The position numbers and the translations under genes are program-made. A stretch of DNA of 64,000 bases from Tateyamaria pelophila. Lineage in GTDB: Bacteria > Pseudomonadota > Alphaproteobacteria > Rhodobacterales > Rhodobacteraceae. Positions within the stretch are counted from its first letter, which is position 1. Each line of letters starts with the position of its first letter. The notes below the pieces were generated by a model. It had not been told where the DNA came from. It saw nothing but the letters and a program-made list of their open reading frames with translations, and searched no databases. The stretch lies in assembly GCF_019966495.1 (NCBI RefSeq), contig NZ_JAIMIA010000017.1:1-64000 (forward strand). The letters are read 5' to 3'. Shown piece by piece: positions 1,523 to 18,786 of the stretch.

Positions 1523-3583
1523 TCAAGGCGTCGGCTTGGCTGTCATCTTGTTGATCCCGCAGCGGAGCGTCGCCCCCAGCGCCAGACTAAAACCGGCGTC
1601 AAAGGACACCGCCTGACGTGCCGAACAAGTGACATCGGCGGTTGCGGGCACCTGCAAATTCCCCAGATCAATCGTGCCATCCGCATAGAGCGATACGGTG
1701 CTGTCGGCTGGCGCTGTCAGCGCGGCGACGGACATGTCTCCCTTGGAGAAATACTGGGTGTCGGGTGCCAGGACTGTTGGGTCTTGTGTCGGCTGGGTCA
1801 CACGAATGGCGAATACCTGGGCCGTGCTGTAGGCATAGATGATACCATTGGCACCCACGCGCAGATCAATAACTTCGATGCCGTCCGTTTTTGCGGGCAA
1901 GCCGTTCAGGGGTTGAGAAAACAGCATCTCGCATTTGGGATCAAAACCACGCAACACACCGCTTTCCCCTGCATCTTCCTGCCAGAAGAAAATGCTGCCA
2001 GCGCCATCGACGATCAGGTTCGACGTTGCGCCGATGTTGCCGTGTTTGGCGTCCGATGCGCAAATCTGATCGCCGCTTTGATGTGCATAGGCTCGGAATT
2101 GACCGGCCTGCACACAGTACACAACCGGATCGACACCGTCGCCGGGCAGCGGAGAGACACAACGCGAAACCGGCCCTTCCTGCGGGGCGTTCCAACGCTG
2201 GGGCGTGCCCGGCTTATCCAGGTCAAAGAACCCATTGACCATGCCGGAGTCCTCGCCAAAGGCCGACAGATAAACCCAATCAGAAGGGGTTTCGGCACTG
2301 GGATCGGCAAGAACAGTCAAGGGCGGGTGAAACTGCGCAAAATTGCCCAGACCGCTGCCTGTGGGATAGCCTGTAGGCACCGGCTGTATGCCTGTGGTGT
2401 TGTCGAAAATCGACAAACCGGCGGATTGATCCTTGCCCATCACATAGACCAATTGCTGGCCGCGTCGCGGGCTGAGAACGGGCGCAGTGGATTGACCGAC
2501 ATTCGCAGGCGATCGCCACAGCGTCTTGAGGCCCGGCAAAGGGCTGAGGGCATAGATATAATTGCCCGGTTGGGTATCGCTGGATTGGTCCTTGCGAAAG
2601 ACGACCAGACCACCGGCGCTGATCACCGGTCGCTTGGACACATTGATCTCGGGCACGGCGCGCGTGTCGATGGCGGTCGGACCATCGGGGCCAAAATCCT
2701 TGAAGACCGTAATATGCCCATCATTACGGAATGCCAGAAGGTTGCCCAGATCATCCAGTCGCAGGTATTTCCAGCTGGTGTCAGGTAAGGCCGCGGCGTT
2801 GGCGTTCGGATAGCTCCAGGCGACAGCGCCATCTGCGCTCATCCCCCACAGTTTCGTGGCGTCCTTGTCCTTGGCCATGAACACCACGGTATCGCCTACA
2901 AAAGCGGGCCCGGTCAGCACCGTCATGTCGGTCGGTGCAGGCGGGAACAGGACGGATAACAAAGCGCCATCCGGCGCGTTGAACGTCCACGGCGTCGCAT
3001 CATCCGGGGACCCACGATAGCGCAGCTGCGTGCCGTTACGTGTCATGGCCGGACTCGTGTCGGCCCAGGTCACGATCAACCGGGGCCGGTTCGACGCGTT
3101 GCTGTCGGCAAAGGAATAATATTCCCGCGTCGATCGGACAGAGTCGCTTTTCAACACCACATTCAGGCTTTCGGGACGCTCGGAAAGCGCCGCCAACAGG
3201 CCGGTGCCGGTCGAGGTGACCGGGATCGCGGCAGTAGGAACGTTCAGCGCGCCGATCGAGCTGTCCAGATCGCCATCGCGAAAAATGCGAATGAACTGCG
3301 CGCTTGCATCCGGGCCGGTCGGCACGATGCGCAACACCGCACTCTCAAGCTGCACGCCGGGTGGTATGGCGCCGATGTCAAAGGTGATCTTGACGCCGTT
3401 TGCGGAGTCCGTCTCGACGGTAAAATGCGCCCCATCTCCGGTGACGGTGGCGGGAATCACGGCAACTGCAACCGCTCCGGCAAAGGCGGCGGGGCCGATC
3501 AGAACTGCCAGCAAGAGACCGACGCTGATGCAAATTTTCCGAATGAAAAGGGCCATTTTGGCGTTCTCCGACTGCAAGGTCAT
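1523..3583 (-). CDS. Secreted beta-propeller protein with N-terminal DNRLRE/CBM96-like domain
   Basis: 686 residues; last gene of the DUF6603-type operon and the only one with a clear signal peptide (hydrophobic run from about residue 12, ending AAFA-G near 35). Residues about 40-175 look like a DNRLRE/CBM96-type beta-sandwich, with alternating strands such as ITFDIGAIPPGVQLESAVLR and a final SNRPRLIVTW. Residues about 180-610 show repeated blades (for example LWGMSADGAVAWSY, NYIYALSPLPGLKTLW) typical of a PQQ-like propeller. The C-terminus carries ARQAVSFDAGFSLALGA, resembling the A-x(n)-L-x-x-G-F-x(n)-G-A motif of adhesin or coat-hanger-like ends. The ATG overlaps the upstream stop by 4 bp (3580-3583), which supports this start. 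An export or surface role is inferred; the partner is unknown. Confidence 0.7.
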   Translation of the reverse strand: MTLQSENAKMALFIRKICISVGLLLAVLIGPAAFAGAVAVAVIPATVTGDGAHFTVETDSANGVKITFDIGAIPPGVQLESAVLRIVPTGPDASAQFIRIFRDGDLDSSIGALNVPTAAIPVTSTGTGLLAALSERPESLNVVLKSDSVRSTREYYSFADSNASNRPRLIVTWADTSPAMTRNGTQLRYRGSPDDATPWTFNAPDGALLSVLFPPAPTDMTVLTGPAFVGDTVVFMAKDKDATKLWGMSADGAVAWSYPNANAAALPDTSWKYLRLDDLGNLLAFRNDGHITVFKDFGPDGPTAIDTRAVPEINVSKRPVISAGGLVVFRKDQSSDTQPGNYIYALSPLPGLKTLWRSPANVGQSTAPVLSPRRGQQLVYVMGKDQSAGLSIFDNTTGIQPVPTGYPTGSGLGNFAQFHPPLTVLADPSAETPSDWVYLSAFGEDSGMVNGFFDLDKPGTPQRWNAPQEGPVSRCVSPLPGDGVDPVVYCVQAGQFRAYAHQSGDQICASDAKHGNIGATSNLIVDGAGSIFFWQEDAGESGVLRGFDPKCEMLFSQPLNGLPAKTDGIEVIDLRVGANGIIYAYSTAQVFAIRVTQPTQDPTVLAPDTQYFSKGDMSVAALTAPADSTVSLYADGTIDLGNLQVPATADVTCSARQAVSFDAGFSLALGATLRCGINKMTAKPTP

Positions 3584-5301
3584 GTGACGTGAAAAGTCAG
3601 CGTATCCGTAGCCAGATCGCTTAGAATGGATTGCACAAAGATGTAGTTCCCAAACGTCGCGGCACAGAGCCGAAACGGCTGCGCTGTGCTCATCGTGCTG
3701 CTTTTGATTGCCCAGACTGCCTGTTTCGACAGGTTATCGCCGTTCTTGACCAGGTTCGCAGGGTTCATACCTTGCAAGGAATACATGCCTGAATTGAGGT
3801 CTGCATTCTTGGGCTGATAAGTGGCGATCACCCGTAGCTCTTCTTCTTTGCTTTCGTTCTGCGCCGTGGTCATCGCGGCGCCGAACGGATCGCCGAAGCC
3901 AGGGTCGGGTGACTGGACGCTGGTGGATATGAAGAACTTCATCTCGCCCCACCCACCGGTCAACCGTGTGGACCACATGCTGGTATAAGGTGAGCCGAAG
4001 GGTGTATTCAAACCCCCGTATACCCACAATGCTTCGATGCATTGCCCACCGGCCACCACAGAATAGCCCTGCATGGCATGAAAACACATTTCATGAGGCA
4101 GCGTCATGAACCGCTCAGGCAAACCCTGGGCCTTCACCTCTTTGGCGCCAAGCCATGTTTTGCCGTCCGTCGTAAAGTAGACATCGTCCAGCGTGTTGCC
4201 GTTCTCATCAACGCCTCCTGTCAGCCAAAGCCGATTGGCATAGGCGGTGATGGCATGTCCCATCCGGGCAGGCCATGTGATACCTTCCGACTGGTCCTCC
4301 CATTTTCGGGTCTTCGGATCATAGGAATGCACCTGATTGGAGAAGGACGAAGCATCCACCTGACTGCCACCCACCAGAAAAATCTTGTTTTGGAAAAAAG
4401 CCGCAGGGCTTTTCTCCATCGCGTCGGGAACAGCACCGTTGGGACACATCTGGTCTTGCGTGCCCATCGACCCGGTGCTGGGGTCCAAAGGATAGATGGC
4501 CGAGCCCTTGAACGAATTGAAAATTCCATACAGTCGGTTCCCCCCATCCGACAGGATGTTCATCGGCGCGCCCTGATCGCAGGCGATCTTGTTCCAACCG
4601 GAGTTCTGAACCCGCACGAAAATCGTTCGGCTGATGGTCTTGCCATCTTCCGTCGCTTCCAGCCTGTAGGGTTGCAGACCTGCATCGCCATAGTCGGTGT
4701 CCGGATAATCATTCTGTGTGGTCGGTGCCGATCGGCTACCCGATTTCGGCAACAGCAGGGTGTTCAGGCGATAGAGTTCGACCACTGATTTCGGGCTGGT
4801 TTTCCACGACAGTTCCACAGGCATCCTGCTGGTGCGCAACGTCACGACGGAATTTTTAGCGGTAAAGTATTCGATCTTGGGCGCATCGTCCGCGCCCAGA
4901 ACGGAGATGTTCAGGTCAACCGTTTTCAAGTCACCGCCGCGCGGGCCCCATTGCAGTTGCATCGTATACGAACCCGCCGCCACTGCGGTGATATGCGACA
5001 GATGCAGGGTGATCGTCGCGCCCTTGCCAAAGGCAACGCCGCGCGCCGATCCCAGTTGGTACCGCGTCATTCCCGCAGGCGGGTGTGCCAGTGGGCCGGA
5101 CGGCGCAAGGGCCGCCGGGCCGAATCCAATCAGGGAGACATGTTTTTGATCCACAAAGCCCAGAGGAATCGACAGATACAAAACCTCGGCAACATCCGAG
5201 GTCTTGGTATTGGTGATATCCACTAATACAATCGATGTTTCCGGCGCCCCCATTCGGACTTCCTGGGACGAGATATTAACGTCCAACGTATCATCGGCCA
5301 T
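3580..5301 (-). CDS. Kelch-repeat protein with Ig-like N-terminal domains
   Basis: 573 residues, no signal peptide. Two beta-sandwich regions come first (about 1-105 and 115-220); the second contains SVVTLRTSRMPVELSWKTS. From about 265 onward there are kelch-type blades, each with a G-G pair followed by a conserved W: NKIFLVGGSQ with HSYDPKTRKWED, then HAITAYANRLWLTGGVDENG with VYFTTDGKTWLGA, then QCIEALWVYGGL. Such propellers usually bind proteins. The gene starts 3 bp after the 1335-residue gene and overlaps the next gene by 4 bp, so translation is probably coupled. The Ig-like segment resembles the C-terminus of the 1335-residue neighbour, suggesting a shared module. Function unknown. Confidence 0.7.
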   Translation of the reverse strand: MADDTLDVNISSQEVRMGAPETSIVLVDITNTKTSDVAEVLYLSIPLGFVDQKHVSLIGFGPAALAPSGPLAHPPAGMTRYQLGSARGVAFGKGATITLHLSHITAVAAGSYTMQLQWGPRGGDLKTVDLNISVLGADDAPKIEYFTAKNSVVTLRTSRMPVELSWKTSPKSVVELYRLNTLLLPKSGSRSAPTTQNDYPDTDYGDAGLQPYRLEATEDGKTISRTIFVRVQNSGWNKIACDQGAPMNILSDGGNRLYGIFNSFKGSAIYPLDPSTGSMGTQDQMCPNGAVPDAMEKSPAAFFQNKIFLVGGSQVDASSFSNQVHSYDPKTRKWEDQSEGITWPARMGHAITAYANRLWLTGGVDENGNTLDDVYFTTDGKTWLGAKEVKAQGLPERFMTLPHEMCFHAMQGYSVVAGGQCIEALWVYGGLNTPFGSPYTSMWSTRLTGGWGEMKFFISTSVQSPDPGFGDPFGAAMTTAQNESKEEELRVIATYQPKNADLNSGMYSLQGMNPANLVKNGDNLSKQAVWAIKSSTMSTAQPFRLCAATFGNYIFVQSILSDLATDTLTFHVT

Positions 5302-5304
5302 GGT

Positions 5305-8300
5305 CTAGGTTTCCTTGCCCACGTCTAAGTCGAGCGATTTGATGCTGCGGTTTCCCTGGCGATCAGATGCCGTCAAGGTGATCGTGACCTTTTCCGTCAC
5401 AGTATACTTGAACTCTGTCGGCAGGGTCGCGCCATCCTGCGTGGTAAATTCGTCGAGACTGTCGGGCTGATTGCTGGCCTTCAACACCAGCTTGTCCGCC
5501 CCATCCGACATCCAGCCAAGGGTAATGTTGGTGCCGGGCCGAACCGTGACGGCCCCCTCCTTGACCCAGAATGCAGAGACCGCAACAGGGTTCATCTTGA
5601 GCTTGAGCCACCCTTCCTGCAATTGCTGCGGGTCGGTTCCGAAACCGCCACGGTCGCCGGGATCGGTGATCTCGGGATATTCCAGCCAGCGGGTGACCTG
5701 AGGCCGCGCCGCCCACGACCAATTGCCGTAGTCATCCGACGGATTAGGCAAGCGCGGTGCCCCCGGTGGTCCCAGAATGGGAGCGCTTTGAAAGAACACA
5801 TCGCGGATCGACGACAATCCGGCGGTCACATCCTCCGGCAGGTTCAGCGAACGGCGCGGTAGAATACCGGATCTGACATGCACCGCCGCATGCGGGTCCA
5901 TCAGCAAGGTCACCGGTACGGAGGTCTTCGCGTCCAGTGGAATTTCCTTCCCATATTGGAACCCGTCAAAGCTTTGGCCTGAAAGGCCGAAACGCGGGTA
6001 ATAGGTGTCGTCGTCTTCCAGCATGAACCCCGAAAGACCGCCTGCCGTGTCGGAACTGCCGCCAAGACGGGTAGGGAACTGCACCGCGGCAATGTCGCGG
6101 GTGGCCGCATCGTCGGTGCCTGCGACGTCACGATAGGGATCGCCGTTCAGTTCAATCCCCAAGAGCGATCGTACCAACGCCAAAGGTCGGCCCACAAGAA
6201 TCGACAGCCGTGGATCATGTTCCACCGTGATATCGGCCTCGGCCTGAGCTGCCGCTATGGACGTCAGGAAATCGCGCGCCTCGTCTCCGTTAAAGCCCAA
6301 CACCCTTTTGACAAAGCGATGCAGTTCCATGTTTTCGATCGCTTCCGCAGTCGTGTCGGTGCCGGGTACGGGCACCCAGAAAAACCCGGTGTTTGACTGC
6401 TCGCGCATCTGACCACTGCCGCCTGCACCGGCAGCGCGAATGATGCGTTGTAACGCGCCCAGCAATGTGCCCTTGGCGTCACAGATCATCAGGCTTTGAT
6501 CCAGATGGTTTGAGAATATCCAACCGCACAGGGGCGTGCCAACGGGATCATCATCTTCGGCTGAGCGCCACTCGAAGTTTATCCGGGCGGGTTGCAGATA
6601 ACGGGGCGGCAGGACGACACCGGGGGTGTCATCCTCGGGTGTGGGCAATCCGAAGGACGGCACGACACGCGCAGTGGCCCGTGTGGGATCAATCAGCACG
6701 CGGGTTTGACCGAAGGAGTCAACCACCGACAATTGCCGGATGGTCATCTTGCCCGCGCGCATCGGCTGGAACGGATGCAACGGCGTGCCGTCGCGGTCCA
6801 GTGCAGGCGCATACATGTTTTGCGGATCAAGGGCCTCAAACCCGTCAATGCGGTCCGCAACAGGGTCCAGTTTCGGCAATGTGCTGGGCAGATTGGCGTT
6901 CAGGTATTCGGGATTGATCGGGGGCAGTTGCAGGCCCTGCATCAATTGGCCCAGCGCTTCCTGGAAGCCGCCAAGGGATTGGGCCACCACCGGCATACTG
7001 TCCAGATCCGAGATGATCTGGCTGAGCTTGTCATTTGCCTTGGTCTCGACCAGTTTTTCCAGACGCCGACGCAGGACAAAGGCGGCGTTGGGGGCCAGCA
7101 TCGTATAGGACTTGTAGGTATAAGGCGTGGCTTCGACCGCCAGATCTTTCGGAATTTCGAAATCATTGCCGCTGTCGTTCAACTCCCAGCTTGACCAGTT
7201 GCCGGGGATGGGGGCGTCGCCGCCCAACCCGGCCTGCGGGTTCCAGTCAACTTCCCAAACAAGATACAGCGGACGCCAGGGATTGCCTGTCCAACGTCTC
7301 AAACCAAGAGAGTCCGGGACTATCGCCGGGGCCGTGTCGGTCAAGGCTGCAAATCTGAGCTTGAGGTCAGGGTTCGGCAACCGATCGCCCCCCTCCAGCA
7401 GGCGCATGATGCCAGTGGACAGTGCATTCACTCCAGCATCGGACGGGTTCTGAATGTTGCTCAACGCGAACATCCGTTTGGCAATGGCCGACACGATCGG
7501 TGGCATTGCATCCCGTGCCCGCGGATCGACCACATCCAGCAACAGGGTTTCGCGCAGCACTCCATTCAACAGATCGGCATAAGGTGCACCCGCCAGCGGC
7601 GGCAGGGGGGTCAGGTCATCAAGCGGGAACAAGAAGCGGGTCGATACTTCGACGGCACTTGCCACGCTGGGCGGAACGCCTTCGATCCCGTCGATCACCT
7701 CGCCTGCATGGCGACAGAGAAGTTCATTCACCTGAAGGTACTGGTTATAGACGTTTCTGGCCTCGAAATTCTTGCCCGTCACCAGAATGGCAGGGTCCGC
7801 CGGATGATGGAACGGTGTGCCGGTGCTGCGCGACAGTTCGAGGTCGGGCAAAGTATTCTTGAGCTGGGTCTTGAGCGCCGTTTCCTGTGCATCTACGGCC
7901 GTGCGCACATCATCGGCGGCTTTGGCGGCAACACCAACCGCTTTCCGGGCCGCCGCGACCGCTTCGGCAAGATCGGGGTCCGACGCGACCTTGTGGTTGT
8001 AATTCGTGGCCCAACGCATCCATGCGGTGAACAGGGTCTGGCGCGTTCGGGCCAGATTGCGTTGCGCCCGTGCATGGGCCTTGGCCTGCGTGTTCAAGGC
8101 ACGCAGATCGGTTGCGGTTTTCTTGGGTAACACCTGCACCGGGCGCGGCGGCTCCGCCGTCATCGGCGCAGATGCCGACACGCCTTGATCCGGGATTACA
8201 GTGCGTTTGGCGTCAATCGAAAACCTGTCTTCGCTGGCCTGATCGGTAAATCGGCGGCGATGCAGTTCGGCATCCACATCTTGCAGGTTCTGGTCGCTGC

Positions 8301-9312
8301 CCAGCATGTCGTAGTGGAACGCGGTCAGAATACGTTCCAGATCGGCAGATGTCGCACCATCCACATGCATCTTGGGGGCCAGCATGGTGGCCAATGCCTC
8401 GCCAGATGTGTTGCCGACAAACACCGTGGCGTCAGAGCAGGGCACTTCAGACAAAGGCACATGCAAATGATCGACGTTCCATTTGACCCGTGTTGCTGCA
8501 CCGTGGCACAGCACCCGGTTCATCAGACCCAGTTTGGCGCCCGTCTCGCTGATCTTGAATTCAAGCTCGGCCAGACGTTTTGCCAGATCGTCCTCGGTCA
8601 CACCATAAAGCAAATCCTTGGTCGCGTCGGAACACCACCCCGAAACGACATAGCTGACATCCCAATCACCCTCTGCCCCACAAGCCGGATCAGGATCATG
8701 AAAGCCCAGGACGCTTTTGCACAACGGATAGCTGGATGGAAAATCGGCAGTGCCGGATCCCAGCGCCTTCAACTCAAGCCTGTAATTCGCAGGCGCATCT
8801 GTCCAGTCCTGCAAAGGCGTCGCCTGCCCCACGCTGGCAAAAAGCTTGTCACTGTTTTCGTTCAGAAAGGGCACCGCGCCGCTGGCAACCTTGTCTTGGT
8901 TCATTTCATGCAGGAAATCGCTCTGAATGATCCAACTGGCGGTGTCCTTGACCTCGTTGCTTTCAGGATGTTCATCGGTTCCGCGCTTGTAGCGGATACG
9001 TCGAACCAGCCAGCGATTTGGAATGTGGGGGTAATCGAGGCCCCCATGTTCTTTCGACGGCACGCCGTGTCCAAAGGCCTGCGGCAACAGCCAATGCAGA
9101 TGCACGCCGCCGTCTGGCGGAGCAGCCGAGCCACCCTGTGGAAACATGTCGACCAACTGGGGCCCTGCCGTCACCAAATTGCTCCAGATGTCTTGATAGC
9201 CAGGCGTCAGATCGGACCAGACAAGACCTTTTGCGCCCGCATTCTGCCCTACCACCAGCGCCGAAAGCTCCATCGGGGCCAAAAGCCAGCCTGTTCCGGT
9301 TGAACCGTTCAT
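5305..9312 (-). CDS. Very large uncharacterised protein (1335 aa) of the DUF6603-type cluster
   Basis: No function recognised. The N-terminus contains PPDGGVHLHWLLPQAFGHGV followed by IPNRWLVRRI. Phrases of this kind recur, as far as I remember, in an uncharacterised bacterial family, but I cannot check this. Residues about 405-490 are Ala/Lys/Arg-rich and likely coiled coil (KAHARAQRNLARTRQTLFTA). The middle is mixed alpha/beta with many W, P and D residues. The last 90 residues form an Ig-like module (VRPGTNITLGWMSDGADKLV and DRQGNRSIKSLDLDV) resembling one in the adjacent kelch protein. No signal peptide or membrane segment. Its ATG overlaps the stop of the 407-residue gene by 4 bp, giving strong operon evidence. 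Confidence 0.65.
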   Translation of the reverse strand: MNGSTGTGWLLAPMELSALVVGQNAGAKGLVWSDLTPGYQDIWSNLVTAGPQLVDMFPQGGSAAPPDGGVHLHWLLPQAFGHGVPSKEHGGLDYPHIPNRWLVRRIRYKRGTDEHPESNEVKDTASWIIQSDFLHEMNQDKVASGAVPFLNENSDKLFASVGQATPLQDWTDAPANYRLELKALGSGTADFPSSYPLCKSVLGFHDPDPACGAEGDWDVSYVVSGWCSDATKDLLYGVTEDDLAKRLAELEFKISETGAKLGLMNRVLCHGAATRVKWNVDHLHVPLSEVPCSDATVFVGNTSGEALATMLAPKMHVDGATSADLERILTAFHYDMLGSDQNLQDVDAELHRRRFTDQASEDRFSIDAKRTVIPDQGVSASAPMTAEPPRPVQVLPKKTATDLRALNTQAKAHARAQRNLARTRQTLFTAWMRWATNYNHKVASDPDLAEAVAAARKAVGVAAKAADDVRTAVDAQETALKTQLKNTLPDLELSRSTGTPFHHPADPAILVTGKNFEARNVYNQYLQVNELLCRHAGEVIDGIEGVPPSVASAVEVSTRFLFPLDDLTPLPPLAGAPYADLLNGVLRETLLLDVVDPRARDAMPPIVSAIAKRMFALSNIQNPSDAGVNALSTGIMRLLEGGDRLPNPDLKLRFAALTDTAPAIVPDSLGLRRWTGNPWRPLYLVWEVDWNPQAGLGGDAPIPGNWSSWELNDSGNDFEIPKDLAVEATPYTYKSYTMLAPNAAFVLRRRLEKLVETKANDKLSQIISDLDSMPVVAQSLGGFQEALGQLMQGLQLPPINPEYLNANLPSTLPKLDPVADRIDGFEALDPQNMYAPALDRDGTPLHPFQPMRAGKMTIRQLSVVDSFGQTRVLIDPTRATARVVPSFGLPTPEDDTPGVVLPPRYLQPARINFEWRSAEDDDPVGTPLCGWIFSNHLDQSLMICDAKGTLLGALQRIIRAAGAGGSGQMREQSNTGFFWVPVPGTDTTAEAIENMELHRFVKRVLGFNGDEARDFLTSIAAAQAEADITVEHDPRLSILVGRPLALVRSLLGIELNGDPYRDVAGTDDAATRDIAAVQFPTRLGGSSDTAGGLSGFMLEDDDTYYPRFGLSGQSFDGFQYGKEIPLDAKTSVPVTLLMDPHAAVHVRSGILPRRSLNLPEDVTAGLSSIRDVFFQSAPILGPPGAPRLPNPSDDYGNWSWAARPQVTRWLEYPEITDPGDRGGFGTDPQQLQEGWLKLKMNPVAVSAFWVKEGAVTVRPGTNITLGWMSDGADKLVLKASNQPDSLDEFTTQDGATLPTEFKYTVTEKVTITLTASDRQGNRSIKSLDLDVGKET

Positions 9313-10532
9313 CCTGATATCTCTGACTTGAAGGTGACAAAGCCGGGGCTTTCCACCATTTCCACACCGAATTCAGCTGAGGTGAATTTGCTTACATCCT
9401 GACCATGAGCGGCCAGCTTGGCCTGAACGGCGGCCGCCATCTTGGACACCCGCAAAACCCGTGTCGGCGTTGTCGACCCGTTCACCGGGCTGCGCATCGG
9501 GGCCTGAATGCCCGTGTTGAAACAGGTCGGAAAAAACTCACCAGGCGGGATATCGGTTTCGGCGCTGCGGTTTTCCGGGTGGCCCTGTTGCACGATCCGT
9601 GGTGCGCCCCCCTCAAGGCTGACGGTAAAGGGCAGATGCATCTCGCTCACACTCGGCGGCTTCTTGGGGTCGGCGTTCGGCACACTAATCCTCGCAATAA
9701 AGCTGAGATCGGCAGGTCCCGCGCTCAGAAACGCCACCTGCTCTTTGGCAATGGCGTAATCCCAGGTCATGGTGGTGGCCGAAAACCCGCTGGTCAAAGC
9801 CAGCAATTGATCCGGGTTCAAAGAGCCGCCGGACCAATGCGCATCACCGGCATAAGCGGTGGCGACACTGGCGTGGGCATTGGCGCTTTTGTTGTCCAGG
9901 ATACCGTGGATACGGGTGACCGTGACGGTGCCGTTCAAATTGCGCAGCTTGAGGCGGGCATATGCGCCCCCACGCGCCGGCGACAAACCGAAATGCATCC
10001 CCTCTGGCGGTTGTTTCAGGGTCAGATGATCGACTTTGCCGTTAAAGATGCACAGCATGATATCGGGAGCCAGCCGGTCAATGCGCAGGGGCGCAATTTC
10101 GACCCCGTCCGGTGCTGCCGCCGTCGGTTCGGAATAGGCGCGCATTTCCAGCCCCTGCCAGCCTGCAACCACTTCGGACCGCATCAGAAAACCGGTCAAC
10201 GGCCAGTGGGCATCGGTGGCCTTGGGCTCGTCATGTCCGGCACCGGACTCGCGGACAGAGAGCGACTCCGCAAGCGCATCCAGCAATGCCTGGGTGCGCA
10301 GGAACTTATCCATCGGGGTGTCGTCCGGTGTGGGGCGCCCAACACTGGTCGCCCCCTGCACCAAAGTCGCGATCCAGCCCGGATCGACATAGAAAAAACG
10401 GATCGACTCCATTGGCAACATGTGCACATCCGGCACGAGATAGCTGAACGGGACGCCGTACATCAGGACGGACCGGCCCAGAAAGCGTTTCACGACCTCG
10501 GGCAGCGGCGGATAGCTTGGATTATCGGCCAT
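9309..10532 (-). CDS. Uncharacterised 407-aa protein of the DUF6603-type cluster
   Basis: No known domain assigned. The sequence opens with a distinctive block, RFLGRSVLMYGVPFSYLVPD followed by ESIRFFYVDPGWIATLVQGA. Later come LTGFLMRSEVVAGWQGLEMR and LRIDRLAPDIMLCIFNGKVD, then PPEGMHFGLS. The density of aromatic and hydrophobic signatures suggests a folded enzyme-like or structural domain under constraint, not a spurious frame. No signal peptide and no membrane helix. It starts with ATG about 10 bp after a CGGAG ribosome site, 39 bp after the preceding gene, and overlaps the following gene by 4 bp. It presumably acts with the other cluster proteins; the role is unknown. Confidence 0.65.
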   Translation of the reverse strand: MADNPSYPPLPEVVKRFLGRSVLMYGVPFSYLVPDVHMLPMESIRFFYVDPGWIATLVQGATSVGRPTPDDTPMDKFLRTQALLDALAESLSVRESGAGHDEPKATDAHWPLTGFLMRSEVVAGWQGLEMRAYSEPTAAAPDGVEIAPLRIDRLAPDIMLCIFNGKVDHLTLKQPPEGMHFGLSPARGGAYARLKLRNLNGTVTVTRIHGILDNKSANAHASVATAYAGDAHWSGGSLNPDQLLALTSGFSATTMTWDYAIAKEQVAFLSAGPADLSFIARISVPNADPKKPPSVSEMHLPFTVSLEGGAPRIVQQGHPENRSAETDIPPGEFFPTCFNTGIQAPMRSPVNGSTTPTRVLRVSKMAAAVQAKLAAHGQDVSKFTSAEFGVEMVESPGFVTFKSEISG

Positions 10533-10571
10533 TGTGCGTCTCCGATCCGGGGGTGGGCCGCGGCATGGTCA

Positions 10572-11987
10572 TCATCCCCACTCCTTCGAGTTTTCAAACA
10601 GCTTGGCAACGGCGTCTTGCAATGTGCCGTCCTTGCCCATCAGAGGCTGCACGAAAAAACCGGCCGCGATGTCGGCGCTTTTCTTTTCGGCATCCAGCGC
10701 CATTTTGACCGAATTGCGATAGCGGTACATCGCACTGGCAAAGCCACGGTTTTGCAAGGCCAGCATGCGCCCCAACTCGTAGGCCGAGGCGTATTCGGTC
10801 GCAAACATGCCCGTCGCATCGTATCGCAGGGCACGATCCGCAGTCGGGATGAAGGCATAGGGGCTCTGCATGTCCATCTGGAGCGTGATCATCGGGCCGC
10901 GATACCATGACACCGTCTTTTCGCCCAAACGCGTGGTGTGGTTCAGGGGCGCGTAGCCAAGCGCAAAGGCCCCCTGCACCGCCTTGATCGCCGGATCGTT
11001 CCCTTCGGGCCGCACCGCATTGAGGGACAAGAGCGAGCGGTCGTCCATCTGGGTCATTTTGACTTTGAAGTCATTGTTCCCGTAGCAGGTAAAATCCCAG
11101 CTGGCCAAAACGGCCATGCGCACCGTGTGCGCACCGTCCGTATTCGGCAGCGATGGCGTGCCATCCTCCGCGACGACCGGCAAATGATCGGAAAACCCCT
11201 CCAGCGAGACCAGGCAGACACGGTTCTTGATGCCTTCGCTGGCTGTCGTTGTCTGGGGCAAACGGTTGCCAAGCACCACCGTGAACCAGCCATCCTGTTT
11301 CAGCGACAGCGTCTCTTTGCCACCGGTCTTGACCTCGCGGACATGGGCGAGAAAAGGCAGGTCTTCCTGACTGGGGGCGATCTGGGTAAAGACGTTCACC
11401 GGCAGGTCAAGCGTGTTGCACAGGTCGCCCTCGCTTTGGCCATAATCCAGATTGATGCCCTTGGGCCCTGTAAATCCATCACCGGGGTTCAACAATTGGC
11501 CCACCGTACGGCTTTTGACCGCTGGCATGTCGCCCGGCTTGCGATCTTTGGCGACAGCTTCGGGCAAGGTCGTTTCGGCTGCGAAGTCATCGGGGCTGAT
11601 CAGGATCAGGGCCATCCATGGCACCGGAAATTCGGAATTCTGCGACGGATCGGCAGGGTTCAGCGACCGCTCCCATGGCAGGGTGCGGCGGGTAAAGACC
11701 ACATGCGGCAGGGCGTTGTCGAACGGGCCGAAATGACCTTTGGGCGGATAGACCGAATAGACTTCCGTCGGCTTCAGGGTGAACCGCGGACCAACGATGG
11801 CAAAGGGGGTGTCTTGGCCGAACGTGTCCTTTGCGGATGGCAGACCCCCTTGCCCGCCCCCGGTCAGAACCTGATCGACGTTGATATTGTAATCTCCGGG
11901 CGGCAACGCAGGCGGAGACGCCTGATAGAACCGGATTTGGCCGGCAACCAGCGGTGGCAGATCGGCGGGCGGGTTGTCTTTGGTCAT
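10572..11987 (-). CDS. Uncharacterised 471-aa protein of the DUF6603-type cluster
   Basis: No named domain. It begins MTKDNPPADLPPLVAGQIRF, has a beta-rich first half, and a more helical second half with conserved-looking phrases: VSWYRGPMITLQMDM, ADRALRYDATGMFATEYASA and YELGRMLALQNRGFASAMYR. No signal peptide or transmembrane segment. It begins 3 bp downstream of the DUF6603-type gene, whose last codons supply a GGAGCG ribosome site, so it is almost certainly cotranscribed. The function is unknown; I infer a scaffold or accessory role for the giant protein only from the tight linkage. Confidence 0.65.
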   Translation of the reverse strand: MTKDNPPADLPPLVAGQIRFYQASPPALPPGDYNINVDQVLTGGGQGGLPSAKDTFGQDTPFAIVGPRFTLKPTEVYSVYPPKGHFGPFDNALPHVVFTRRTLPWERSLNPADPSQNSEFPVPWMALILISPDDFAAETTLPEAVAKDRKPGDMPAVKSRTVGQLLNPGDGFTGPKGINLDYGQSEGDLCNTLDLPVNVFTQIAPSQEDLPFLAHVREVKTGGKETLSLKQDGWFTVVLGNRLPQTTTASEGIKNRVCLVSLEGFSDHLPVVAEDGTPSLPNTDGAHTVRMAVLASWDFTCYGNNDFKVKMTQMDDRSLLSLNAVRPEGNDPAIKAVQGAFALGYAPLNHTTRLGEKTVSWYRGPMITLQMDMQSPYAFIPTADRALRYDATGMFATEYASAYELGRMLALQNRGFASAMYRYRNSVKMALDAEKKSADIAAGFFVQPLMGKDGTLQDAVAKLFENSKEWG

Positions 11988-11990
11988 GTC

Positions 11991-14900
11991 TTAACGCTCC
12001 GCCGGCAAGGGTTGGCCCAGCGTCGCATAAGTCGGCTCGGACTGGTATATGGTTTCCGCCCGGTCTGCCGTGAGGGTGAGGTCGGTCTTGTTGAGCGGGT
12101 GCGGCGTACAGGCGTTCAGCACGTCCATAATCGGATCGCGCGCCGAACTGGTGATAATATCGGCAAATGTCTTTTCTTTCCCTTTGGGCGTGACCGGTTT
12201 CGGGGTGGGCACGTCGCCCCAAAAGATCGACTTGTCGATCGGCTCATAGGCAAAGGCCTGGATTTCCATCGCCGGGAGGCCGTGGCGAACCTGAGACTGC
12301 TTGCCCTTTTCGCTCAGGGTCACGGAAAGGCCGGCCGGTACCTGTTGCAACAGCTTGCTGCCGGGCGTCTTGAGGTCAGGCTTGCCCTGCCCCCACATCG
12401 CATCGGGAAAACCCTTGCGGATGACCTTTACTTCGAACAGATCCGGATCGACATCGCCGCTTACATCGCTGGCCATCCGGACCTTGAGAGGCGAATCGAG
12501 TGTCTTGGAATAGAGCGGCTTGATGCCCAGCTTGCTCTTGTAATCGTCACCACCAGGAGTCGTTTTACCAAGGTAGCTGACATCGGTACACGGTGCCATG
12601 GTTTGTACGTTCACAACCAGTTCCTGGGCATTGACCAGCGGTATCTTGCGGTCGTTGTCCGTGTCGTCCCATTCCTGCAGCAGGCCACCGGCATAGACGA
12701 CAGAGGTGACAGCCGCATGCTTTGGCAAGAAGGATTTGGAGAAATCATGCCAGTCAATGGCGGCAGGTTCGGCAGATCCATCGGCACCAAAGTGCACGGT
12801 GAAGGATACCACATAGAATTTGATCCGTGCTTCACCGGTAAAGTCAGGTCCACAGATGTGCAGATCGGCGCCCAGCTCGAACTTGAAGGTCATCGAAACG
12901 GTGAACAGGCCCAGATCGACACGCACCGTGGCGCTGGCACCAATGCTCACGCCGATGCGGATGCGGTAAAAGAACGGCTTCCAACTGATGATGAAATCGG
13001 CATAGGCCACGAACCACGCCTTGGCCCAACCGATATCGTAAACTGCCGCCAGTTTGCCGCCCGCCATCAGGCAGGACGGGGTTAGCGCAAAGTACAATTC
13101 GCCGGTGATCCGGATATCGCCGTTTTTCCAGTCCAGCCCAAGGCGGGGCACGACCGGATAGTGATCGGGGCGTTTGAAATCGGGGTGATAGCCGCCAAGG
13201 GTGACCACGAAATCGCCCTCATGATCGCCCTTGAACCAGGTGAAAAAGGCAAACCCACCCGTCAGTTTGCAATCCTTGTCAAAAACATAGGAATTCGAGG
13301 TCAGACGCGCCTCGACCGATAATACACCCACCGCCGGGTTAAACTCGGCACGCAGGGCCAGTTCGGCGTAGCAGATCGGATTTTCGGACGCTTTGAGGTG
13401 CGCAGGCACCGACAATTTGGACAGACCCAGCACCGAAACGCTCAAATCCGTCCCGAATGTCACCGCCAGTAGCGCAACCGTCTCAATCTGCTCGAACGAG
13501 CGGAAGCGGACGCCGGCCGCCAGCCAATAGGATGATGGATCGGGCGGAATCGCCTCGCTCAGCTTTTTGAGCGCCTCTTCGGGGTCATCCGCGTTGGCGA
13601 TATAGCTGGGGTCGGAAATGACCTTGACCAGTGGGAATTCCTGCACCTGATCAATCGAGGGCAAAAGCAGCTTGCGCTTGAACCCGAAACCCGCCGCCAG
13701 TGCCGTGACATTAAAAAACACCGGTCCGCCCAGATTCTTGTCGAGGACGGCAAAGACGAACATCGACGGCGACCCGTCGATCGACGCATAGGAACCAAGA
13801 CCCGTGAGAGAGAAAACTTCTGTCTTGATCAGCGCCGCGCCGGTATATTGCACCACGTCGATCTCGGCGGGGGGCGGATTGGGCGACTTAACCTTGGTGG
13901 TCATTTCAAGGAAGCTGCCGCTGATTTCTACCGGCCCGCCCTGGAAGGTAAGGTCAAGACCGCCCAGGTCGAGCGTGTAATCCTTGATATCCTGCGGATG
14001 CGTCAGTGGGATACCCACCGACAGATTCATCAGGTCGATGCCCAGCGGGCCCAACTCGACCGACCCGTCAAAGCCCACCAACAGATGGCGTTCGCTGTCA
14101 AAACCCAGACCGACCTTGCGGCAGAACATCGGGCCAAAGGATTTTTCGACAGGAATCCAGACTTTGTCACCCGCCTCGGGATCGTCATTGAGGATTTCGG
14201 CGTCGAAGTCGTTGCAATAGGCAATCTGAACGCCGAATTCGGGATTGACCGGATCGCCCTTGGCGACCTCTTTGCCATCTTTGGCCTTACTGTTTCCGGA
14301 TTTGGCATCCTTGTCACCGGAGGACAGCAAGCCACTGGCCACAGGGTTCTTTGTGCCATCTTCGGGCTGTTTCGCGGGCCCCAATGGCAATGAGGCCCGT
14401 TCGACCCGGACGCCGCCGCCAACCTTGACGGGGCCGTCCACGTCGCTGAAGTAGACGCGGGCCTGCATGCCCTCAGCCTTGTAACCCTTGATGTCAAACA
14501 GCGGGTTCTTGTCGTTACCTTCCACGTCAAGACCGACACTGACCAGTTTGAGCTTGAGGTCAAATTCGGGTTTTTTATCTGCGATCTTGATCAAATCAAG
14601 GTGGATACCGCGTTTGGGTGGGTCGGGTTTGGCGTCGCCCCAGGTCTTGGTCAACCAGTTGTCTTTGTCCGTCTCGCTGCCGCCTTTTTCCTTGGCAGCG
14701 TCTTCGCCGTCAGCCTTGTCCTCCTCGGGTGCGTCTTTGGCGCCTTCATCGCCCGCCGTCTTGGCGTCCTTTTCGGCGTCCGACATCCACTTGCCAAGTT
14801 GCAGGATGACTTTGGTTTTTTCGGGTGGATCCTCGGTGTCTTTGCTACCATCTTTTTGAGTAGCGGCCTTGCCCGCCTCGTCCTTGTCGTCGTCTTTCTT

Positions 14901-17330
14901 CTTGTCCCCCGCGACGACAACATCCTTCATCGCGAGGCGTAAACCATAACGCTCGGTGCCCTTTTTACCCTCATCTCCTTCATCGGCAGACCCTTTGGCA
15001 TGGGTCAGGTACAGGCCGTCATCCTTGCCGATCTTGTACAATATCTGTTCGTCGATTTCGGCGAGATATTTGGACAATGCGGCTTTGAAAAAGTCTACCG
15101 GACTCAGGGCCTTGAGCTTGGCAAAGTCGATGGAATAGTCGGGCAGGCTGGGCAACCGCAGGGCCTTGGTCTGATCGGCGGCTAGGGACACGTCATCCGC
15201 CCGGGGCGCATCGTCGACCTCAACGAAAAACCCCCATTCGATCAGGATCGCGGCCCAGGTACAGTCTTGGACGCTTTGGGTGATGGGTGATTCAAACCAC
15301 GCCTTGACCGCTGGAAAATCCAGAACAACAGCTTGCAGCATCGGCATCAGGCGTTCGGCGGTAAAGTCCTCGAACCCCGTCAGCGGAACCATACCAAAGC
15401 GAATGGGCGCGTCCTCGAACCCTTTGATCGGCAATTCGCCGACAAGGGTAAACGCGGGCTTGTCATCCAGATCTGCCGTCAGCTTGGGCAGGGGCACGTC
15501 CTTGGCCGTGCCACCACCAGCATCGGCGGTAAAGGTAAACACAGGCGACGTAGGTTTCGTCACGTTCTTGACCCGCAGCCCGGTTTTCAAACCCAGGTTC
15601 AGCGGGTCGACAGTAAGACCGACATCGGCGTCTACAGAAATACCGGCGTCGCCAGACTTGCCACCACTGAGGGCAACCGTAACCGGGCGGTCCTGGATGA
15701 CCGTATCAAACGCATAATGAAATACGCCCTTGCCATAGGTCAAACCGGAGTCGGGCGGAATAAGCTCATTGAAAAATGCCTGCCACACGCCGTCATCATG
15801 CAGCTTGTCAAGCAGCAGTTCCAAAATGTCGAATTCCGCTGTGCCACGGGTCAGCATTGTGACGAGGGACAAGGTTTTCTTGTCGCCTTCCTCAAAGTCG
15901 CCGAAAGGCACCGGGGCGGGCGCGCCTGCATCCATTTTCAACCCGATATGAAAGCGGGTCGGAGCGATGCTGTAGGCCGGGTCTTGCTTGTCGTCATAGG
16001 TGAAAAGCGTGGTGTTGTCCGGGCGGTTCGCAGTGGCCGAAATCTCGAAACTGGGCTGGATGGTCACCGGGTCGGATCCGCCCAGGGTAATCTTGGCCAG
16101 CGTCGCCTTGCCGGACAGGCCAAAATCAAGACCTTCGATCTTCTTGGTTGGGGCAGACATCCGCGCACCAAGGGTCAGCTCGATGGGGGAACTGCCGTCG
16201 ACGGCAAGGGTGAATTCAAAGCTGGGCTTGCTGTCGCCCCCATCGAAAAAGGTGACGGCAAAGGGATCTTCGAGCGTGCCCGCGCCATGCATGTCCTTGT
16301 CGATATCGCCTTGGCGGTCATAGATATCGAGGCCTTGTGCCATGCAATAGATGCCGTGCAGCCATTGGCGCAACAGAGCCGCGTCATCGACGATGGACAG
16401 GAACCATTTTTCCCAGACGGCGCCGAAATCACTGCCGACCAGCGCAGCCCAGTCCATCGGTGGAATCGCCGAGGCTTGGTTTTTGCGAGAGGGCAGGCCC
16501 AGCAGCCACAACACACCCTGCTCCATGGCCTCGACCATGACCTTGTCCTTGTCGGACATGCCTTTGGCTGCGGCATCCGTCGCGGCATTCAAGGCATAGA
16601 TCAGCAACGCCTTGAACACGTCGCCCAACAGAGTGCTGGGGTCCTTGATCAGTTCGATCGCGTCAAGGTCGTGCACGTCCGCACCACCCAGAACCAAATC
16701 TTTCAGCAGGAATTGCACTTGCGGTGATTTGTTTGTGAAAAGGTCACCGACGATATCCAGGCCCAACACTGAAACAGAGCCGTTGGCCACCGAAAACGGA
16801 GTGCCGTCAGCGCCCCGCAATTGGGTCAAAAGCTGAACAGGTTGATCTGCCTGACCCAACAAAAAGCTCCGTTTCGCCAGATCGATAATGGGCAGTTGGG
16901 CCAATAGGTGGATAGCAAACAGCGGGGTCTTGTCCGCGTCAGTCGAGGCAAAGGGATCATATGCAATGCCCAACGAAATGCGGCTGGCGTTATCGTCCTT
17001 GCGGGCCACCAGGCTCATGCCCGTCGGCACTTGCTTGCCGTCTTTGGGATACTCTATCGCGTACCAGAATTCGCCGCCTTTTTCGTCAAGCGGGCTGGGT
17101 TTTTGGTCGCCCAGAAACGACATGATGACAGTAAGCAGTTCGTGGGGGTTTTTCTCAACCATCGACTGGATCGGCTCGATGGGGTTTTTGAACCACTCGC
17201 CGTTCAGGGTGTATTGATCGTCGCCCACATCATTCAGCAATCCAAGCAACTGGCCAAACACGCCAAGGCGCGGATCGAGACCTTCGAGGACAGGGCCGCC
17301 AAATCCCGAGGCGGGAGCGTCTAAAGACAT
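11991..17330 (-). CDS. DUF6603-type giant protein (1779 aa)
   Basis: The C-terminal half matches what I know of DUF6603 proteins: GGFAFFTWFKGDHEGDFVVT, HYPVVPRLGLDWKNGDIRIT, then GELYFALTPSCLMAGGKLAA, then AYADFIISWKPFFYRIRIGV and ELGADLHICGPDFTGEARIK. The protein is rich in amphipathic beta-strands throughout (roughly 360-780 and 920-1540). Residues about 797-910 are an extremely charged Asp/Glu/Lys linker. No signal peptide. I chose the ATG at 17330; a TTG at 17348 is in frame but neither has a strong ribosome site. It is the first gene of the six-gene operon. The abundance of long strands would suit a rod or bridge-like surface or lipid-contacting protein, but that is speculation. Family call good, function unknown. 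Confidence 0.75.
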   Translation of the reverse strand: MSLDAPASGFGGPVLEGLDPRLGVFGQLLGLLNDVGDDQYTLNGEWFKNPIEPIQSMVEKNPHELLTVIMSFLGDQKPSPLDEKGGEFWYAIEYPKDGKQVPTGMSLVARKDDNASRISLGIAYDPFASTDADKTPLFAIHLLAQLPIIDLAKRSFLLGQADQPVQLLTQLRGADGTPFSVANGSVSVLGLDIVGDLFTNKSPQVQFLLKDLVLGGADVHDLDAIELIKDPSTLLGDVFKALLIYALNAATDAAAKGMSDKDKVMVEAMEQGVLWLLGLPSRKNQASAIPPMDWAALVGSDFGAVWEKWFLSIVDDAALLRQWLHGIYCMAQGLDIYDRQGDIDKDMHGAGTLEDPFAVTFFDGGDSKPSFEFTLAVDGSSPIELTLGARMSAPTKKIEGLDFGLSGKATLAKITLGGSDPVTIQPSFEISATANRPDNTTLFTYDDKQDPAYSIAPTRFHIGLKMDAGAPAPVPFGDFEEGDKKTLSLVTMLTRGTAEFDILELLLDKLHDDGVWQAFFNELIPPDSGLTYGKGVFHYAFDTVIQDRPVTVALSGGKSGDAGISVDADVGLTVDPLNLGLKTGLRVKNVTKPTSPVFTFTADAGGGTAKDVPLPKLTADLDDKPAFTLVGELPIKGFEDAPIRFGMVPLTGFEDFTAERLMPMLQAVVLDFPAVKAWFESPITQSVQDCTWAAILIEWGFFVEVDDAPRADDVSLAADQTKALRLPSLPDYSIDFAKLKALSPVDFFKAALSKYLAEIDEQILYKIGKDDGLYLTHAKGSADEGDEGKKGTERYGLRLAMKDVVVAGDKKKDDDKDEAGKAATQKDGSKDTEDPPEKTKVILQLGKWMSDAEKDAKTAGDEGAKDAPEEDKADGEDAAKEKGGSETDKDNWLTKTWGDAKPDPPKRGIHLDLIKIADKKPEFDLKLKLVSVGLDVEGNDKNPLFDIKGYKAEGMQARVYFSDVDGPVKVGGGVRVERASLPLGPAKQPEDGTKNPVASGLLSSGDKDAKSGNSKAKDGKEVAKGDPVNPEFGVQIAYCNDFDAEILNDDPEAGDKVWIPVEKSFGPMFCRKVGLGFDSERHLLVGFDGSVELGPLGIDLMNLSVGIPLTHPQDIKDYTLDLGGLDLTFQGGPVEISGSFLEMTTKVKSPNPPPAEIDVVQYTGAALIKTEVFSLTGLGSYASIDGSPSMFVFAVLDKNLGGPVFFNVTALAAGFGFKRKLLLPSIDQVQEFPLVKVISDPSYIANADDPEEALKKLSEAIPPDPSSYWLAAGVRFRSFEQIETVALLAVTFGTDLSVSVLGLSKLSVPAHLKASENPICYAELALRAEFNPAVGVLSVEARLTSNSYVFDKDCKLTGGFAFFTWFKGDHEGDFVVTLGGYHPDFKRPDHYPVVPRLGLDWKNGDIRITGELYFALTPSCLMAGGKLAAVYDIGWAKAWFVAYADFIISWKPFFYRIRIGVSIGASATVRVDLGLFTVSMTFKFELGADLHICGPDFTGEARIKFYVVSFTVHFGADGSAEPAAIDWHDFSKSFLPKHAAVTSVVYAGGLLQEWDDTDNDRKIPLVNAQELVVNVQTMAPCTDVSYLGKTTPGGDDYKSKLGIKPLYSKTLDSPLKVRMASDVSGDVDPDLFEVKVIRKGFPDAMWGQGKPDLKTPGSKLLQQVPAGLSVTLSEKGKQSQVRHGLPAMEIQAFAYEPIDKSIFWGDVPTPKPVTPKGKEKTFADIITSSARDPIMDVLNACTPHPLNKTDLTLTADRAETIYQSEPTYATLGQPLPAER

Positions 17331-17849: not shown

Positions 17850-18215
17850 TTGGAGTATGTTGAGAGCCTCTATTTCTCCAAGACAGCGATGGCGGTGGCA
17901 TTTGGAGTTTTCGTCGCTGCGGTGTCGGCGTATGGTCACGAAGCGATCTGTATCGCTCCTTGCGGACAAGTAACCGCAGGTGGCACGGCACAGCGGTCAT
18001 CGTTCGATATTCAAGACGGCGACCGGCTGAGTTCTTCAATACATTCCGAACGGATGTCGAACTTCAACGGGACCGGACTGGCGCTGTCTGTGGAGTATAT
18101 CGGCTTCATGTCTCATCCTAATGTTGAAACCAAGTTCATCATTTACGACAGTCGGGCCACAAAAGACGGCATCCCGTATTTTCCGAAGGGGGACAACCTT
18201 GACCAACATCTTTAA
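17850..18215 (+). CDS. Small predicted exported protein, unknown function
   Basis: 121 residues from a TTG at 17850; an internal ATG at 17889 would give 108 residues. A hydrophobic segment (AMAVAFGVFVAAVSAYG) followed by HEAICIAPCGQ suggests a signal peptide with cleavage near SAYG. The mature protein has two cysteines close together and no recognisable domain. Its last 17 bp overlap the start of the next gene, which also encodes an exported protein, so translational coupling is plausible. Neither start has an ideal ribosome site. Moderate confidence that it is real. Confidence 0.5.
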   Translation: MEYVESLYFSKTAMAVAFGVFVAAVSAYGHEAICIAPCGQVTAGGTAQRSSFDIQDGDRLSSSIHSERMSNFNGTGLALSVEYIGFMSHPNVETKFIIYDSRATKDGIPYFPKGDNLDQHL

Positions 18216-18786
18216 AATCGCAATCGCCTTCCTCGTCCTGACCATCGCGACGTCGGCCATTGCCCAACCTGCAATGAAAATCGACCCGGATGGCAATGTC
18301 GCAATCACAGGCGACGCGTCGGTCACCGGGACGTTCACCGCAAAAAACGTCCAGGCCGACAACCTCAATGCCATTCTTGCCGATATCAAGGCGCAGAACG
18401 CCTTGATTCTGGAAAGCCAGACCTGGGTTCTTTTTGCGCCCAACATGCGTGACGCAATGAACAAGGTGCTTGCCGATAACAGCCTCACAAACACCTACGA
18501 GTTTCTCACAAACCGCAATGTCGGCGCGCGTGGCTTGCATTTTTCCGATTGGAACGGCGGTTTGCGGGCAATGACAGACCCGTTTCTTATAGGTGACACG
18601 CAACCTTTCAGTCTGGGTGGAGCAGCATGGCTTGTCGGCACCAACGACCCAGACCAAGGGACATGCAACGACACCCAGGTGCTGCACCGATATTACCAGT
18701 CCAAGTCCACCGGAATTCAAACCATCTGGGGCAATGGATGTCGGCCGGGCCCTGCGGTCTACGCTCGAAAACGACTGTTCCAATAA
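18199..18786 (+). CDS. Exported protein with I-D-x-D-G motif, paralogue A
   Basis: 195 residues from a TTG at 18199, chosen because an AAGGGGG ribosome site lies about 7 bp upstream and it places a clean signal peptide (IFKIAIAFLVLTIATSAIAQ) at the N-terminus. The mature part starts PAMKIDPDGNVAITGDASV, a short beta motif like those at the start of phage fibre or collagen-like stalks, followed by a short helix (VQADNLNAILADIKAQNALI) and a globular domain ending NGCRPGPAVYARKRLFQ. The protein encoded at 18834 is clearly paralogous: same motif order, the same LHFSxWNxGLRxMT block, and the same terminus. Unknown function; likely periplasmic or surface. Confidence 0.65.
   Translation: MTNIFKIAIAFLVLTIATSAIAQPAMKIDPDGNVAITGDASVTGTFTAKNVQADNLNAILADIKAQNALILESQTWVLFAPNMRDAMNKVLADNSLTNTYEFLTNRNVGARGLHFSDWNGGLRAMTDPFLIGDTQPFSLGGAAWLVGTNDPDQGTCNDTQVLHRYYQSKSTGIQTIWGNGCRPGPAVYARKRLFQ

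Follow-up and report, generated by a model that had tools for sequence, protein, structure and literature searches.

What might be encoded by an operon that opens with a giant DUF6603 protein and packs six genes almost without gaps? Such an operon was found in Tateyamaria pelophila (assembly GCF_019966495.1, contig NZ_JAIMIA010000017.1). The window analysed here is the first 64,000 nucleotides of this contig, which is 67,473 bp long within a 5.65-Mb genome. A first reading, made without database searches (the sequence-only reading), had proposed an undescribed system of six tightly coupled genes and about 5,250 residues. Comparative analyses showed that the first four genes, F1-F4, form a real, co-inherited module; genes 5 and 6 are a variable part, outside the universal core. 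The explanation that we tentatively favour is that the operon encodes a self-contained assembly, which may carry an enzyme and be aimed by a tip, with a constant F1-F4 core and two exchangeable positions.

The conserved F1-F4 core

The operon spans positions 1523-17330 of the window and contains the following features.

11991-17330, minus strand: F1 (P0001), DUF6603 (PF20248) giant, 1779-aa open reading frame (ORF)
12666-14150, minus strand: DUF6603 domain within F1, E=4.4e-140, the genome's sole match
10572-11987, minus strand: F2 (P0002), 471-aa ORF
9309-10532, minus strand: F3 (P0003), 407-aa ORF
5305-9312, minus strand: F4 (P0004), 1335-aa ORF
3580-5301, minus strand: F5 slot (P0005), N-terminal region and C-terminal kelch propeller, 573-aa ORF
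1523-3583, minus strand: F6 slot (P0006), hydrophobic N-terminus (likely exported) and weak DNRLRE-like region, 686 aa

The six minus-strand ORFs total 5,251 residues. Their junctions, from F1 to F6, are 3 bp, 39 bp, a 4-bp overlap, 3 bp and a 4-bp overlap, which confirms the coupling and size first described. An alternative TTG start 18 bp farther upstream would lengthen P0001 to 1785 aa. Residues 1061-1555 of P0001 match profile positions 1-479 of 502 of DUF6603 with 464 bits (curated cut-off 27, E=7.5e-139), and the domain is single-copy in this genome. The kelch repeats of P0005 were also recovered in Pfam (e.g. Kelch_4, E=4.8e-12). The DUF6603-type giant and the kelch protein had been recognised correctly. 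The other four proteins (P0002, P0003, P0004, and P0006) gave nothing above the Pfam cut-offs in a scan at E<=1. The NCBIfam, PHROGs, and PADLOC scans of all six proteins were uninformative, and only the kelch part of P0005 matched two PHROGs. PDB sequence searches with P0001 and P0004, and searches of solved structures by sequence with the F1 and F2+F3 profiles, yielded no informative relatives; profile and member scans of F1-F4 identified no known family. The only matches of the F4 profile, to helical chains (coiled-coil or designed), were weak (E=0.07-0.19), so the coiled coil once assigned to the 1335-aa protein was not confirmed. Nor was the last protein recognised as a propeller, since its only match was to DNRLRE, below threshold (E=0.011).

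Relatives of the operon were collected by one pattern-based scan with one genome per species. The set consists of the best 80 of 94 loci (L numbers), two of which, L078 and L086, share one genome; phyla were assigned from record titles. The ORFs are mechanical longest ORFs, so that starts and gaps are unreliable in high-GC genomes. About 11 phyla are represented among the 80 loci: Pseudomonadota, Acidobacteriota, Bacteroidota, Bacillota, Actinomycetota, Cyanobacteriota, Desulfobacterota, Fibrobacterota, Chloroflexota, Eremiobacterota, and Myxococcota. Beside DUF6603, F2 was found in 79, F3 in 78, and F4 in 74 of the 80 loci. F2 and F3 form a single fused protein in 49/80 loci, and the gap between F1 and F2 is at most 100 bp in 76/79. 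The core operon is defined here by the presence of the four families together on one strand; in the window, they follow the order F1-F2-F3-F4. All four are found together in 74 of the 80 loci. Co-occurrence as a block in other phyla was therefore established for genes 1-4; it did not extend to genes 5 and 6. Among the six loci in which F4 is missing, L048, L070, and L083 end within about 2 kb past F1, and L022, L031, and L045 lack it with 7.7-9.4 kb of downstream sequence present. F4 lies upstream of F1 in L032, L044, L049, and L063. In five inspected plasmid records (Paenibacillus, Streptomyces, Embleya), the same genes adjoin DUF6603, with F2 and F3 fused.

The C-terminal region of F1 recurs in 86 F1 ORFs. 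Residues 1-420 recur in 12 F1 ORFs and in three ORF pieces of L034; among the matches shown, these ORFs include the giants of L023, L035, L052, L058, and L059. The F1 alignment (A5, 75 rows) omits L010, L043, L034, L070, L084, L083, L049, L039, L020, L024, L042, L051, and L028. The F4 alignment (A7, 68 rows) omits rows shorter than 950 residues as well as L007, L034, L043, L066, L067, L074, L086, and L089. Several fused rows with insertions were dropped from the F2-F3 alignment (A6), and A9 contains 40 F4 rows.

The distribution within the window's family points the same way. DUF6603 is present in 9 of 248 genomes drawn from it, and F4 in 8 of those 9 and in 0/239 DUF6603-negative genomes (Fisher p=3e-14). 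The DUF6603-positive genome without F4 is G557, which carries a second operon type (see below). The F1 and F4 distances are correlated over 62 shared loci (r=0.944, Mantel permutation p ~0.0005). The closest locus to the window is the near-identical L013 (89% identical). The next nearest F1 copies are L015, from a Rubrivivax metagenome-assembled genome (MAG), and L014, from an Acidobacteriota MAG; the next nearest F4 copies are L015, L016, and L014, the last two being Acidobacteriota. The Rhodobacteraceae-type copies L017, L019, and L063 rank behind those nearest copies, with L017 and L019 just before L016 in the F1 distances. These rankings suggest that the F1-F4 block was transferred as a unit.

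No mention of DUF6603, PF20248, or IPR046538 (which we take, perhaps wrongly, to be the identifier of the same family) and no description of an operon of this kind was found in the literature searched, whose scope left out subscription papers and preprints. Together with the neighbourhoods and the co-inheritance, this agrees with the proposal of an undescribed system; neither condition that would have refuted it, rare adjacency of the genes in other genomes or a function already assigned to the families, was encountered. A phage origin, or a phage structural module, was considered and is not supported. No relative of P0004 or of the DUF6603 region was found in 50,697 phage records (a search that did not include F2 and F3), and DUF6603 had no match in viral contigs.

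A second type of DUF6603 operon was found in G237 (L010-L012) and G557 (L119), where the neighbours of DUF6603 are an F2-like protein and a member of a 1716-aa family. In G237, the N-terminal part of the F2-like protein fits the F2 profile with E=8.8e-13. For the F2-like protein of G557, the E-value is 3.3e-5 against the F2 profile and 3.2e-86 against its G237 counterpart. G237 also encodes 589-aa and 979-aa proteins, the latter with a weak pre-toxin TG match (E=0.016). Compared with the core operon, this type shares the DUF6603 gene and the F2-profile match, but F3 and F4 were not detected: neither had a significant match among the G237 proteins examined, and F4 was not found in genome G557. 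DUF6603 is thus part of at least two related multi-gene systems.

Some side observations were made on the core genes. F3-profile repeats, each about 80 residues long, are present in the F3 proteins of L046, L066, and L067, as well as within the F4 ORFs of L066, L067, and L089. In L034 (Marinomonas rhodophyticola), F2, F4, and a lipase-like gene are split into several frames, and its relative L035 is unbroken. A DUF6765 protein (E=3.9e-23) lies between F3 and F4 in L054 (16056-17981), and a similar-looking ORF in L041 (9938-11950).

Variable positions on both sides of the core

The fifth gene, directly after F4 in the window, belongs to one of several groups. Pfam matches above the cut-off were obtained for 7 of the 16 fifth-position proteins scanned. 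Kelch repeats were found in the window (P0005), L016, L037, and L039; other propeller families in L018 (Cytochrom_D1, with a WD40-type match that ranks better but misses its own cut-off) and L056 (Lactonase, NHL); and a discoidin (F5/8 type C) domain in L006. L121 has three tandem fifth genes, the third truncated where the retrieved sequence ends, which align only over about 200-280 near-N-terminal residues. The two fifth genes of L008 align at 79% over their first 269 residues only. Common N-termini within a group with divergent C-termini are the pattern of receptor-binding tips, from which we infer a constant docking end and a variable target-binding end. Profile relatives of the sixth protein, P0006, were found in ten other loci, directly after the kelch gene in the flavobacterial ones.

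The second variable position is upstream of F1. For 39/88 F1 ORFs, a neighbour of 150 aa or more in the same direction lies within -60 to +80 bp of F1, some of these neighbours being mechanical ORFs. By profiles, Pfam, and motifs, a hydrolase-fold gene was recognised upstream of F1 in 29/85 loci. Among these, 22 are within -60 to +80 bp of F1; those of L058, L059, L071, and L089 overlap an F1 ORF that was probably called too long; and those of L006, L023, and the broken L034 are 1-5 kb from F1. The sequence-only reading had stated that no enzyme is present among the genes. This is true of the recognised domains in the window and not of the system as a whole.

Four kinds of hydrolase fold were assigned to this slot, many of them by sub-threshold matches. 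The metallo-beta-lactamase (MBL)-type proteins form one profile family in 18 loci, all with the HxxxDH motif (18/18), and are spread over Actinomycetota, Acidobacteriota, Pseudomonadota, Bacteroidota, Bacillota, and Myxococcota. DNase-I-like proteins (Exo_endo_phos) were found in three loci, with a fourth, L066, assigned by motif only; they occur in Bacteroidota and Actinomycetota. A papain-like Peptidase_C70 gene is upstream of F1 in L077. Lipase_3-like proteins occur in six loci of Pseudomonadota and Eremiobacterota, upstream of a giant F1, at these coordinates.

L023, 1364-2899: Lipase_3-like gene
L034, 3006-3836: Lipase_3-like gene
L035, 2274-3836: Lipase_3-like gene
L052, 2321-3835: Lipase_3-like gene
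L058, 126-2699: Lipase_3-like gene
L059, 3-2615: Lipase_3-like gene

Two further families were noted in Bacillota-type loci. One is found near the block in 10 loci, and its member in L029 (19129-20997) has a sub-threshold C-terminal Hint match (E=2.3e-5). Another family, of about 190 aa, lies directly upstream of F1 in L041, L047, L054, L055, L064, and L070, and downstream in L077.

Possible functions of the operon

A fixed core, a swapped enzyme, and a swapped tip together suggest an enzyme-delivery assembly. The core proteins would assemble in the cytoplasm, with F2 and F3 acting as one unit, and F5 would dock through its N-terminal region as the recognition tip. A hydrolase from the upstream slot would be carried as payload. 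The assembly might leave the cell by a non-Sec route or by lysis. F5 and exported partners of the P0006 type would then bind other cells or a surface, and the enzyme would be exposed or delivered at the target. In the window, the kelch tip is present. No hydrolase was recognised in its slot, so any payload might be inside F1 residues 1-1060 or elsewhere, or be absent. Conservation, gene order, fusion, co-inheritance, different modules in both positions, and the lack of signal-like N-termini in most core proteins were observed; physical assembly, export, delivery, and the payload and tip roles are what we infer.

Several observations weigh against this explanation. A recognised hydrolase is absent from the slot in 56/85 loci, and the window has no MBL, EEP, or lipase profile match at E<=0.1. 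Only 3 of the 17 upstream proteins scanned exceed a Pfam cut-off (L032, MBL, 1.5e-9; L052, Lipase_3, 1.4e-26; L077, C70, 3.9e-9). The matches of L051, L053, L074, L037, L057, L062, and L039 are sub-threshold; these include the MBL matches of L037, L057, and L062, and the DNase-I-like matches range from E=9e-5 to 4e-3. L039, which combines a sub-threshold hydrolase match with a GHSLGG motif, was excluded from the 29. Pfam gave nothing useful for L071 (an MBL-profile member), L066, L050, L014, L031, or both proteins of L049. Because 12 of the 18 MBL loci are actinobacterial, they are not independent. In all six loci, the lipase-like protein carries GHDxGG where GHSxGG is expected, with Asp at the position of the nucleophile Ser, and thus may be inactive or use a different chemistry. 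At the other end of the block, the phage tail Collar match of L051 and the FapA match of L080 are sub-threshold, and 7 of the 16 fifth genes (L008, L017, L019, L029, L034, L053, and L066) gave no Pfam module. For the two largest fifth-gene groups, c0 and c1, hhalign gave a probability of 85%, with 8% identity in an alignment that does not cover the N-terminus; the remaining group pairs reach 15% or less. A single homologous family of fifth genes is therefore unsupported. A hydrophobic N-terminal stretch was found in 12/83 F4 ORFs. Immunity genes and export machinery were not noticed, though no systematic search for them was made.

Signal-like N-termini were scored by a crude hydropathy scan. 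In the window, only P0006 has a clearly hydrophobic N-terminus (2.98, compared with at most 1.93 in the other five), as had been proposed for the signal peptide of the last protein. Most core families have few such N-termini (F1 0/88, F2 0/85, and F3 1/86 ORFs), and two fifth-gene groups have none (0/27 and 0/12 ORFs). Beyond the F1 end of the window operon, three ORFs of uncertain association were found.

18121-18786, plus strand: likely exported protein with a 'DPDGNVAITGDASVTG' stretch; its relatives adjoin the F1 gene of L013
18834-19505, plus strand: paralogue of the 18121-18786 ORF (E=8.6e-28 between them)
19555-20430, minus strand: hydrophobic segment and recurrent 'D.NV.I.G...V.G' stretches, read by eye

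All three proteins are likely exported and carry 'D.NV.I.G...V.G' stretches; the third is similar to the 18121 ORF at E=0.11 only. The two plus-strand paralogues both end in YARKR.FQ. Exported-type proteins with 'NGNV.I.G' stretches adjoin the block in the window (18121-20430), L013, and the flavobacterial L020, L024, L025, L027, and L061, with a weak link between the window and flavobacterial proteins (best E=0.005). Beside the 3' end of the operon, an ORF at 628-1200 on the plus strand resembles, by eye, the end of an IS3-type transposase.

These proteins bear on an alternative in which the block builds a surface or extracellular-matrix assembly. Its propeller and discoidin modules would serve adhesion, and its hydrolases would remodel a substrate rather than kill. 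The recognised F5 modules are of the binding type, and the exported-type neighbours of the window, L013, and the five flavobacterial loci fit such a role. So do the hydrophobic N-termini in 10/11 proteins of cluster 2, the group that holds the flavobacterial relatives of P0006. However, the core proteins mostly lack signal-like N-termini, and nucleases and proteases would be odd partners for a matrix. We consider this alternative unlikely.

The same scarcity of signal-like N-termini would be expected if F1-F4 formed a cytoplasmic scaffold or compartment around the hydrolase encoded next to them, comparable to an encapsulin with exchangeable cargo. The enzyme gene at most 80 bp from F1 in 22 loci is also consistent with this arrangement. 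The binding modules of F5, the tandem tip paralogues, and the exported-type neighbours fit an outward role better, and the enzyme folds are unrelated. A compartment of this kind seems a little less probable still than a matrix.

The window also contains an extracellular contractile injection system (eCIS) operon, and the sequence-only reading had named it as a conceivable partner. It is a separate operon (27397-50763), 10 kb from the six-gene block, with the following recognised features.

27397-29679, plus strand: eCIS sheath
31675-33015, plus strand: eCIS Pvc16_N (tail-terminator)
33012-34934, plus strand: eCIS AAA
39950-42478, plus strand: eCIS Baseplate_J; a second one, 42475-45240, is just under the cut-off
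47404-50763, plus strand: eCIS DUF6519 and beta-helix protein

DUF6519 is described as the fibre anchor eBAP5 in PMC12923769. With Pvc16_N as the eCIS marker, co-occurrence was above chance at the genome level, in figures that ignore phylogeny. In the window's family, Pvc16_N was found in 5/9 DUF6603-positive genomes and 22/239 others (p=0.001), or in 4/8 DUF6603-positive genomes without the window genome (p=0.005). For F4-bearing genomes, the count was 4/8 versus 23/240 (p=0.006), or 3/7 without the window genome (p=0.03). The family of L024 (Flavobacterium) has a Pvc16_N background of 24/149, or 22/147 without two known F1-positive genomes; the marker was present at 5/7 title-assigned F1-positive loci versus these 22/147, which may include further F1-positive genomes (p=0.002). 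A type VI secretion system (T6SS) marker, used as a control in the window's family, was not enriched (1/9 DUF6603-positive genomes versus 56/239, p=0.69).

Enrichment of this kind, together with the 10-kb distance in the window, would favour an accessory or cargo module, a complex loaded on or working with contractile injection systems. Against it, Pvc16_N was found in only 39/77 F1-positive genomes and in none of the 12 with Bacillota titles; this count omits L034 and L043, the latter on the same contig as the marker-less G262. In a sample of the class (DUF6603 in 3/385 and Pvc16_N in 9/385 genomes), the window genome alone has both (p=0.07). Besides the window genome, its family has four more double-positive genomes, all draft assemblies with DUF6603 and Pvc16_N on different contigs, so the closeness is seen in the window only. 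The F1-F5 profiles have no match to the window eCIS proteins at E<=0.5, and sheath, Pvc16_N, baseplate, and AAA+ domains were not found by Pfam in the six block proteins. The block was therefore rejected as a part of the eCIS itself. An accessory role appears improbable, and the link is a correlation that is equally likely to reflect a common ecology or a common function.

Defence systems typically swap effectors beside a fixed core, and some loci are plasmid-borne. Even so, a role in defence against phages or other elements, with the nuclease, MBL, protease, and lipase-like proteins as the swapped effectors, is very improbable. The six window proteins match no PADLOC model (0 families at E<=0.1), no NTPase or sensor domain was recognised in them, and binding-tip modules and exported-type partners are present.

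Comparison with known systems

F1 is a strong member of DUF6603 (PF20248), which Pfam describes as a family of unknown function; the new part is its operon context. By sequence, the core matches no known system tested and is in that sense of a new kind; a known fold might yet come to light from its structure. More specifically, and with greater reserve than for an enzyme-carrying assembly in general, F1-F4 might be a delivery particle unrelated to phage tails, Tc toxins, and known secretion systems. Such a particle would combine a DUF6603 scaffold with swapped hydrolases and swapped propeller, discoidin, or collar tips in about 11 phyla, which we regard as possible but doubtful. If the enzyme-delivery explanation is true, this kind of assembly would escape searches that use the sequences of known secretion systems and toxins. 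In any case, four large co-inherited families without an assigned function are distributed over about 11 phyla, with marine and soil bacteria as well as Lachnospiraceae among the hosts.

The Tc (ABC) toxins also consist of very large co-encoded proteins without Sec signals and have exchangeable toxic parts. Their A subunit is pentameric and pore-forming, and their BC subunits have a cocoon structure. Unlike in the Tc toxins, the enzymes of the DUF6603 block are separate genes, and the six window proteins have no Tc, VRP1, or RHS-type Pfam family at E<=1.

The DUF6603 block differs from the eCIS in that it has no sheath, tube, baseplate, or AAA+ gene, as well as in the profile comparison above. 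The two have a similar organization. According to PMC12923769, the core of Afp/PVC-type eCIS is fixed and their payloads can be exchanged; their variable fibres keep a conserved anchor at the N-terminus and swap the binding domains at the C-terminus. The same paper describes a collar domain in Pvc13, and the L051 tip has the sub-threshold phage-collar match. Like the eCIS, the DUF6603 block has a fixed core, a variable enzyme slot, and variable candidate tips.

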